From the NCBI GenBank assembly GCA_019638085.1, contig JAHBUL010000019.1:1-64000 (forward strand): a stretch of 64,000 bases of DNA. The letters are read 5' to 3'. A program made the position numbers and the translations under genes. The notes beneath the pieces are model-generated. The model was not told the DNA's origin. It did no database searches and saw nothing but the letters and a program-made list of their open reading frames with translations. Source of the stretch: Flavobacteriales bacterium. Lineage in GTDB: Bacteria; Bacteroidota; Bacteroidia; Flavobacteriales_F; PHOS-HE28. How positions within the stretch are numbered: position 1 is the stretch's first letter; each line of letters starts with the position of its first letter. Of the stretch, positions 35,319-38,101 are shown piece after piece.

Positions 35319-35972
35319 TTAACGCCTACCCTTTTCCACACGCGGTTCCGTGGCATTCCGCTCCTGCAGGTATCGCTGGTACGGCTCCGTAAAAGCCGCA
35401 CGATGCTCGAAGACATCCGCGAAATTCCCGATCAGCTCGATCACTGCTTCAGTGGCTTCCCGCAGACCATTCTCCCCGCCACTGTTGGCCGTTACGATAT
35501 CAGTCTCACCCCTCGCGATCACATGGTTGGTGAACCGTTCACCCCCCTTCCGGCCGATCATTACCCGCAAACCACATTCCTTCGCAAGGGCCAGGTCGAT
35601 GGCATCATCGAAGAAAAAGGCCACTTCTTGAGGTTTCAGATCGTTGTCCCTCAAGAAAACCTCAAAGGCATCGGGCTTGTTTATGTAACCCATGTAGATC
35701 GCATGGAACTTCTCCCGCTGCACGAACTTCTCCGCATGCGGATTGATCTGTCCGGTGATCACAGCGGCCGGTGGGTTCACGCCGTTCTTCAGCCACAAGG
35801 CAAAGCGCAGCATGTTCACGCCCATGCTGCCCACCTCGCTGAATGGGCTGCCACCATCGATGTCCTTCCAACCGTCGTTGAACACGCCGTCCCAATCGAA
35901 GAGGACAGCTTTGATGTTCTGCATTCGGCGCTGTAGTTCCGCTGGCTCGTGCAGGTAGCGGGTTTCGTGCAT
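35319..35972 (-). CDS. KdsC-like HAD phosphatase
   Basis: 217 residues of the HAD superfamily C0 type (no cap). FDWDGVFNDGW carries nucleophile D26 and acid/base D28; ITGQ supplies motif II threonine; K in INKPDAF is motif III; FFFDDAIDLALAKECG supplies the metal aspartates. This matches KdsC/YrbI, which dephosphorylates Kdo 8-phosphate. The final metal motif is FDDAID rather than GDDxxD and there is a 16-residue N-terminal addition, so it is a divergent member. Its position in a row with transaldolase-CBS and kdsA supports the Kdo role. Confidence 0.8.
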   Translation of the reverse strand: MHETRYLHEPAELQRRMQNIKAVLFDWDGVFNDGWKDIDGGSPFSEVGSMGVNMLRFALWLKNGVNPPAAVITGQINPHAEKFVQREKFHAIYMGYINKPDAFEVFLRDNDLKPQEVAFFFDDAIDLALAKECGLRVMIGRKGGERFTNHVIARGETDIVTANSGGENGLREATEAVIELIGNFADVFEHRAAFTEPYQRYLQERNATEPRVEKGRR

Positions 35973-36113: not shown

Positions 36114-37136
36114 CTACCCCGCAATTGCCTTCATCATATCCTGGATGTCCAGCATGCCGAGCTGCTTGCCGTTCTCGCTTACACTCAGGGTATCCACCTT
36201 ATGCTCTTTGAACAGCTTCTGGGCCTCGTCCAACAAGGCTTCAGGAGACACGGTGTACGGCGCGTTGAATGTCAATGCGCTCAGCTTCTTGCTAAGGAAC
36301 TTGTTTCCGTCCTTCTCGATGCCGCGGCGTAGGCCACCATCCGTGAAGACGCCCTTGTTCTTCCCTTTGGCGTCCACCACCATCACAGCGCCGAAGCCGT
36401 GCTTGGTCATTTCCACCAAGGCCTCGCTTACAGTTGCACCTTCCTTCACGATCGGATTGCTGCGTGAGAGCACGTCCTTCACCTTCATGGTGATCAAGCG
36501 GGTGTGCTCATAGAACTGTTGTGTGCCAATGGTGGTGAAATGGTTGTCCGTAAGTTGCTTCATCAGCTTCCAAGGGACCGTGATGGTGTGTACCCCGATC
36601 TCCACCGCATTGCGCACATGCTCTACTGTACGCACGCTGCTGAACATGATCTTGCTATCGTAGCCATAATAGTTCACGGCATCCACGCACTGCTGAACGA
36701 GGCTGAGCGCATCGTGCCCTTGGTCCTGTAAACGCCCCACGAGCGGACACACGTAATTGGCACCCGCTTGCATGGCCATGTAGGCCTGCTGCAGCGTGTA
36801 CACCAAGTGCACGTTCACCATGATGCCTTGATCGCGTAGCATTTTGCACGCACGCAATCCCTCAAGGCTTACCGGGATCTTGAAGACTGTGGTCTCCTTC
36901 TTCAGACCCATCTTCAGTTGGCGTTTGGCCTCCTTCACCACTTCTTCAGCGGTTTCGCCCAAGGCTTCCACCTGCAGGATGGGCACCTTCTTGGCAAGGT
37001 CGAGGATCATCTTGTCGATGTTCGTGACCCCCCCACGATGCATGAAAGTGGGCGTGGTGGTGAGACCGGTGAGAAAACCAAGCTTGAAGGCTTCGTCGAT
37101 CTCCTTGATGTCGGCACTGTCTAAGTAGAGTTCCAT
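36114..37136 (-). CDS. Transaldolase/fructose-6-phosphate aldolase domain fused to a CBS pair
   Basis: 340 residues. The first 220 are a class I aldolase of the transaldolase family: MELYLDSADI with D6, GLTTTPT at 24-30, the Schiff-base lysine K86 in FKIPVSLEGLRACKML, and FSSVRTVEH. Compared by eye with E. coli FSA, N28 is T, Y131 is L and A129 is C, while E57 sits where FSA has Q59. The last 115 residues are two CBS domains (DVLSRSNPIVKEGATVSEAL; GVFTDGGLRRGIEKDG; YTVSPEALLDEAQKLF), the type that follows the SIS domain in KdsD. The locus between KdsC-like and KdsA genes is where kdsD would be expected, so a role in making or sensing arabinose 5-phosphate is a strong inference. ATG 37136 matches the family start. 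Confidence 0.9.
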   Translation of the reverse strand: MELYLDSADIKEIDEAFKLGFLTGLTTTPTFMHRGGVTNIDKMILDLAKKVPILQVEALGETAEEVVKEAKRQLKMGLKKETTVFKIPVSLEGLRACKMLRDQGIMVNVHLVYTLQQAYMAMQAGANYVCPLVGRLQDQGHDALSLVQQCVDAVNYYGYDSKIMFSSVRTVEHVRNAVEIGVHTITVPWKLMKQLTDNHFTTIGTQQFYEHTRLITMKVKDVLSRSNPIVKEGATVSEALVEMTKHGFGAVMVVDAKGKNKGVFTDGGLRRGIEKDGNKFLSKKLSALTFNAPYTVSPEALLDEAQKLFKEHKVDTLSVSENGKQLGMLDIQDMMKAIAG

Positions 37137-37252: not shown

Positions 37253-38101
37253 TCATCCTTTCACCTCCACATTTTCCCTGTACTTCACCTCCACCGCATG
37301 CAGATCCAGCAGCGGCTTCAGGAATTCCTCCAGATCATAGACACAAAGCTGGCTGGCTGCATCACAGAGCGCAGTGCTTGGGTCGGGGTGTGTTTCAATG
37401 AAGACACCATCAACGCCCGCTGCCACACCGGCACGGGCAATGGTGGGAAGGAACTCGCGATTGCCGCCCCGAGGGTCGGCACTGGGGATGCCATACTTGC
37501 GGATGCTGTGTGTGATGTCGAATACCACGGGATAGCCTGCTTGGCGAAGGTGATAGAACGCTCGGGGGTCCACCACCAGATCATTGTATCCAAGAACAAA
37601 TCCGCGCTCCGTGAGGATGATCTTCTCGTTACCCACACTCTCGATCTTCCTCACCGGTTTTACCATATTGTCCGGGGCTAGGAACTGGCCGTGTTTCAGG
37701 TTGATCACTGCACCGGTCCTGGCCGCCTCCGTGACCAAGGTGGTCTGCATGCAGAGGTAGGCAGGGATCTGGAGTACATCGCACACTTCCGCAGCAGCTT
37801 TCACCTGGCTCGGATAGTGTACATCCGTGAGGATGGGAAATCCGAACTCCTTTTTCACCTTCTCCAGTGTCTTCAACCCCTCATCGAGCCCTGGGCCCAT
37901 GTAGAACTCCACACTGCTGCGGTTGTCCTTCATGAAGCTGCTCTTGTATATGATGGGGACCTTAGTGCGCTCGCTTACCTCGCGAAGCTTCTCCGCCGTC
38001 CTCATCATGATGCTTTCCTCCTCGATCACGCAAGGACCCGAGATCAGAAAGAGTTGATCTCCTCCGCAATCGATGTTACCGACTTGTACGTGCTTGGTCA
38101 T
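37253..38101 (-). CDS. kdsA: 3-deoxy-8-phosphooctulonate synthase
   Basis: KdsA condenses arabinose 5-phosphate with phosphoenolpyruvate to Kdo 8-phosphate in the cytosol, the committed step of lipopolysaccharide inner core. The 282 residues hold ISGPCVIEEES near 19-29, YKSSFMKDNRSS, LTDVHYPSQV, LKHGQFLAPDNM, VVFDITHS and FIETHPDPSTALCDAASQ (ligand block). Start is ATG 38101; a longer frame to 38230 is unrelated to KdsA. A TAGATTTG box lies further upstream at 38250-38257. It is the first gene of a probable kdsA/transaldolase-CBS/KdsC-like unit. Confidence 0.96.
   Translation of the reverse strand: MTKHVQVGNIDCGGDQLFLISGPCVIEEESIMMRTAEKLREVSERTKVPIIYKSSFMKDNRSSVEFYMGPGLDEGLKTLEKVKKEFGFPILTDVHYPSQVKAAAEVCDVLQIPAYLCMQTTLVTEAARTGAVINLKHGQFLAPDNMVKPVRKIESVGNEKIILTERGFVLGYNDLVVDPRAFYHLRQAGYPVVFDITHSIRKYGIPSADPRGGNREFLPTIARAGVAAGVDGVFIETHPDPSTALCDAASQLCVYDLEEFLKPLLDLHAVEVKYRENVEVKG

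Follow-up and report, generated by a model that had tools for sequence, protein, structure and literature searches.

Within the window, the whole stretch of 64,000 nucleotides of Flavobacteriales DNA that was analysed, an open reading frame of 340 codons runs from ATG to stop on the minus strand; a plus-strand reading of the same interval (36114-37136) was ruled out, as stops interrupt it. The encoded protein joins a transaldolase/FSA barrel to a pair of CBS domains and is referred to here as the fusion. Its gene has kdsA upstream and a kdsC-like gene downstream, and all three genes lie on the minus strand. The features of the locus are as follows.

37253-38101, minus strand: kdsA of the fusion-associated subfamily (NCBIfam, signature D-Y-M-H-R-Y-C plus an inserted Ile, tree)
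36114-37136, minus strand: transaldolase/FSA-CBS fusion, 340 aa (translation, Pfam, NCBIfam, 80 relatives)
36531-37136, minus strand: TAL/FSA barrel of the fusion, residues 1-202 (Pfam, residue alignment, fold match with Z 28)
36879-36881, minus strand: codon of Lys86, the Schiff-base lysine (alignment to TalB K132; nucleotide position calculated from the start codon at 37136)
36126-36500, minus strand: KdsD-type CBS pair of the fusion, residues 213-337 (NCBIfam, closest solved sequence, motif)
35319-35972, minus strand: divergent kdsC-like HAD phosphatase gene (sub-cut-off KdsC scores, conserved position; start codon determined)

Pfam places TAL_FSA at residues 3-202 of the fusion (124.5 bits against a cut-off of 27) and identifies two CBS repeats (60.5 bits against 24). 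No SIS catalytic domain was found in the protein with Pfam or NCBIfam, the N-terminal part being TAL_FSA, and the match to the KdsD/KpsF model TIGR00393 (63.2 bits, below the cut-off of 203.7) comes from the CBS part only, which aligns to model positions 153-267 (NCBIfam). The score against the FSA/TalC equivalog TIGR00875 is also below cut-off (163 bits against 246). Among solved sequences, the CBS pair is closest to 4o9k, which comprises the CBS part of an arabinose 5-phosphate (A5P) isomerase and which we take to have CMP-Kdo bound; the pair carries the motif G-[VI]-F-T-D-G-x-L-R, which KdsD also has. The fusion was retrieved from 80 other loci at 65-98% identity, nearly all labelled Bacteroidota, and is therefore neither a chance product nor an assembly chimera. 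The reading frame, the Pfam and NCBIfam matches and these 80 loci together confirm the original prediction of an aldolase domain and two CBS domains encoded between a kdsC-like gene and kdsA.

KdsD, KpsF and GutQ combine a SIS domain with two CBS domains and interconvert ribulose 5-phosphate and A5P. The fusion is like these enzymes in its CBS pair, which has the same motif and finds in them its best sequence match, in the position of its gene, which adjoins kdsC and kdsA as in many genomes, and in a presence tied to kdsA; it is unlike them in having a transaldolase-type barrel in place of the SIS domain and in falling far below the family cut-off. Single-domain A5P isomerases without CBS domains occur in Bacteroides fragilis and Clostridium tetani (references in PMC11301363). 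These also depart from the standard KdsD architecture, but whereas they keep the SIS domain and lose the CBS pair, the fusion keeps the CBS pair and replaces the SIS domain.

The AlphaFold2 model of the fusion has a mean pLDDT of 85 and a pTM of 0.57, the latter leaving the relative placement of the two halves unsure. Structural comparison was made with model residues 1-222, the CBS half being assessed by sequence and not by fold. The model barrel matches small transaldolases with Z 28 (1vpx and 3s0c; for 1vpx, rmsd 1.4 over 193 residues) and FSA with Z 26. In its fold, Schiff-base lysine, catalytic aspartate and phosphate-binding Arg/Ser/Arg, the fusion is like the TAL_FSA proteins (B. subtilis 3r8r, T. 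maritima 1vpx and E. coli FsaA 1l6w). In the alignment, Lys86 falls on the Schiff-base lysine of both TalB (K132) and FSA, and all 83 fusion proteins have it, which bears out its earlier assignment as the Schiff-base residue; D6 is found in all 82 that are readable at this position. Asp6, Glu57, Lys86, Arg135, Ser167 and Arg169 are kept in the barrel, and across the 83 fusion proteins the equivalents of TalB D17, E96, K132, N154, R181, S226 and R228 are retained. Given that the Schiff-base and phosphate-binding residues are kept, the fusion would be expected to form a Schiff base and to bind a phosphorylated aldose.

The donor pocket, unlike that of TAL_FSA, is altered: the equivalents of TalB N35, T156, S176 and F178 are Thr, His, Cys and Leu in all 83 fusion proteins (Thr28, His110, Cys130 and Leu132, unlike transaldolases), and the Asn/Thr/Ser donor pocket of transaldolases proper (N35, T156, S176) is missing from every one. 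Further departures from TAL_FSA are the CBS pair, the tie to genomes with kdsA (49/50) and the score under the FSA/TalC cut-off. In transaldolase structures, S176 and the area of T156 surround the C1 hydroxymethyl of bound dihydroxyacetone; given that A5P is fructose 6-phosphate without C1, the changes of S176 to Cys and of T156 to His fit a two-carbon donor. As the pocket is unlike both FSA and transaldolases, the substrate may also be another pentose phosphate. That a transaldolase-type site can hold A5P is indicated by PDB entry 3upb, whose title describes a covalent complex of transaldolase and A5P.

The KdsA encoded beside the fusion scores about 330 bits against the KDO8P synthase model TIGR01362, over the cut-off of 314, and has all the catalytic and metal residues of the metal-type enzyme of Aquifex aeolicus (1fwn). 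Unlike 1fwn, it belongs to a clade with seven substitutions and an insertion that, in the sample studied, occurs only with the fusion. The KdsA sequences of fusion genomes group as a single, long-branched clade (SH-aLRT 100, from a short tree search) and are at least 67% identical to the KdsA of the window, against 40-52% for classical KdsA. In Aquifex numbering, the changes are A47D, F103Y, R106M, K125H, Q188R, P190Y, an inserted Ile and S232C; D, Y, M, H, R, Y and C stand in 72 of 72 fusion-genome sequences and the classical ones are seen in 43 or 44 of the 44 others, so that the full signature separates the two sets with zero overlap. For 10 of the 72, kdsA lies on a different contig from the fusion gene, and as the signature is kept when the genes are unlinked, the association reflects more than linkage. 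K46, N48, R49, S50, K124, H185, E222 and D233, which comprise catalytic, metal and A5P-binding residues, are unchanged in the fusion type. When aligned with Neisseria KdsA, positions 47 and 103 adjoin or coincide with Asn57, Arg58 and Phe112, residues reported to lie close to the A5P portion of the site (PMC6650799). Judged from its sequence, the neighbouring KdsA is a special, co-evolved subfamily, a feature not visible to the original prediction; either its pocket has been adapted to a different mode of A5P delivery, or its acceptor differs. G263 and G272, two genomes with KdsD as well as the fusion, carry both a classical and a fusion-type kdsA gene. In G272 a single, ordinary KdsB accompanies both KdsA types, which favours the same product for both, and in a third genome (G277) KdsD is present, yet the only KdsA is of the fusion type.

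The scores of the kdsC-like gene lie well below the KdsC cut-offs (50 against 208 bits and 42 against 107, NCBIfam), and Pfam gives no match to it, suggesting that the KdsC of fusion operons is also divergent. Among relatives of at least 89% identity whose loci have enough flank, kdsA precedes the fusion in 22 of 22 and kdsC follows it in 25 of 25; among distant relatives the figures are 27 of 42 and 35 of 46, respectively. In several genomes kdsB adjoins the fusion. At three distant loci (L040, L050 and L053), a 3-oxoacid CoA-transferase subunit A is encoded directly upstream of the fusion, in place of kdsA.

The window belongs to a genome of 4.0 Mb that is 99% complete. A search of this genome with the KpsF/KdsD model found no SIS-CBS KdsD over cut-off, a result that leaves the original prediction standing. 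The CBS half of the fusion gave the top match to the model; the second was IMP dehydrogenase and was rejected as a KdsD. Every SIS match above the Pfam cut-off was assigned, to GlmS, GmhA, MurQ and PGI/PMI, the last three identified by curated models; for GlmS, we infer this identity for a 617-codon frame from its two SIS domains. GmhA was considered as a hidden A5P isomerase and rejected, as it is an ordinary GmhA with no solved A5P isomerase among its matches at E 1e-5. The genome also encodes an ordinary KdsB and a separate standalone small transaldolase (294 bits against the TIGR00875 cut-off of 246), so the fusion is not needed for the housekeeping role of transaldolase.

When 247 genomes were sampled evenly across the phylum, the fusion was found in four, each of a different family; kdsA is present in 4/4 and KdsD in 0/4. 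KdsD occurs in 177 of the 179 other genomes with kdsA (counted from rows), and in two of the four families (f3 and f9) other genera have KdsD instead of the fusion. The window's order is represented by 31 genomes of one genus: fusion and kdsA each occur in 30 of them, KdsD in none. The exception (G312, of the window's genus; rated 100% complete, 9 contigs) is without fusion, KdsD and kdsA; as the fusion gene adjoins kdsA, the loss of both could stem from a single deletion or gap. With all three absent, this organism may make no Kdo.

For 50 fusion genomes reached through the loci, completeness figures for which are not given, kdsA was present in 49 and KdsD missing in 45. The other five carry fusion and KdsD together, and in these KdsD adjoins a frame of 731-754 aa in divergent orientation, which is recQ in the one tested; their KdsD locus looks ancestral. 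Two genomes with kdsA have neither KdsD nor the fusion (G200, locus L196, and G023, locus L197). They were rejected as hidden fusion genomes, the KdsA signature being classical in both; they may have a third source of A5P or an assembly gap. KdsB was over cut-off in 28 of 28 genomes tested. In summary, the absence of KdsD from the genome and from the order, the near mutual exclusion of KdsD and fusion across Bacteroidota, the tight co-occurrence with kdsA and the KdsD-type CBS pair make the genomic half of the original prediction, that the fusion sits in the position of KdsD and replaces it, well supported; the interpretation as a whole, which included a chemistry, is partly supported.

It is suggested, with a probability of about 0.6, that the fusion is a feedback-regulated, A5P-forming Schiff-base enzyme that would supply KdsA and has displaced a lost KdsD. 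The CBS pair would be the feedback sensor, probably for CMP-Kdo; we infer both this ligand and the reaction. An imine would arise between Lys86 and the C1 of an aldose, and from it two routes can be drawn. In route (a), glycolaldehyde and glyceraldehyde 3-phosphate would be joined to A5P by aldol addition, as E. coli FsaA can do; in route (b), ribose 5-phosphate would be inverted at C2 by way of an imine/enamine at C1, for which Asp6 and the new His110 would act as acid/base pair. From A5P, KdsA, KdsC and KdsB would lead to CMP-Kdo, the steps from Kdo 8-phosphate onward being the known pathway. Route (b) would draw on an abundant substrate and give His110 a role; to our knowledge, C2 inversion of ribose 5-phosphate is without precedent. 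Route (a), the chemistry originally put forward, is possible by analogy and has precedent in the use of E. coli FsaA as an A5P aldolase acting on glycolaldehyde and glyceraldehyde 3-phosphate (PMC9947464), but requires a supply of glycolaldehyde. Conversion of ribulose 5-phosphate via a C2 imine was set aside as chemically awkward, since the lysine would remain bound at C2.

A bolder version is advanced tentatively: the Schiff-base aldolase fold, an unprecedented chemistry (for example the C2 inversion of ribose 5-phosphate) and a dedicated KdsA could constitute an independent second entry into Kdo or, as a variant, start from a different aldehyde and yield a Kdo-like sugar. Two observations run against the A5P reading. 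The fusion-type KdsA is changed on the A5P side, which might mean another acceptor, and KdsD is kept beside the fusion in five genomes.

Human and yeast GFAT are able to form A5P and rescue an E. coli kdsD gutQ mutant, which lacks A5P isomerase (PMC11301363), so that the absence of KdsD alone is no proof that the fusion must make A5P. This raises the possibility that the fusion is a regulator or side-drain that tunes pentose phosphates and that the A5P is supplied by a promiscuous SIS enzyme, for instance GlmS or GmhA, both of which are present in the genome; the coexistence of KdsD and fusion in the five double carriers would agree with it. Such a role is nevertheless unlikely: first, E. coli kdsD gutQ mutants are auxotrophic despite having their own GlmS. 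Second, the GmhA of this genome is an ordinary GmhA and, third, near mutual exclusion of fusion and KdsD is not predicted for a mere regulator.

It is also conceivable, though rather improbable, that the fusion makes some other phosphorylated aldehyde, which the special KdsA would condense with phosphoenolpyruvate to a Kdo-like ulosonate and not to Kdo. The seven fixed substitutions and the insertion in KdsA, several of them at the A5P side, the divergent KdsC and the two genomes that pair both KdsA types with both KdsD and the fusion would all be consistent with such a product. However, KdsB is ordinary in every genome tested, including G272, where one KdsB serves beside two KdsA types, the eight KdsA residues listed above are unchanged, and G277 has KdsD but solely a fusion-type KdsA. 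That the fusion is an ordinary transaldolase which gained a CBS pair and lies near kdsA by chance is very improbable, for although its barrel fold and most of its catalytic residues are transaldolase-like, the same genome has a normal transaldolase, the tie to kdsA and the KdsA signature persist when the genes are unlinked, and the TalB N35, T156, S176 and F178 equivalents are replaced in every fusion.

Kdo is essential for the lipopolysaccharide of most Gram-negative bacteria, and KdsD is the standard source of its A5P. In the open literature, which leaves most subscription papers outside, no description of a transaldolase-CBS protein in Kdo synthesis was found. The fusion would fill a gap in the Kdo pathway of many Bacteroidota genomes and points to an undescribed route. 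As an A5P-forming enzyme it would be a natural one, the use of FsaA for this purpose having so far been engineered, and the lineage-wide swap to an unrelated catalytic fold with the same kind of regulatory domain would be a clear case of non-orthologous displacement.
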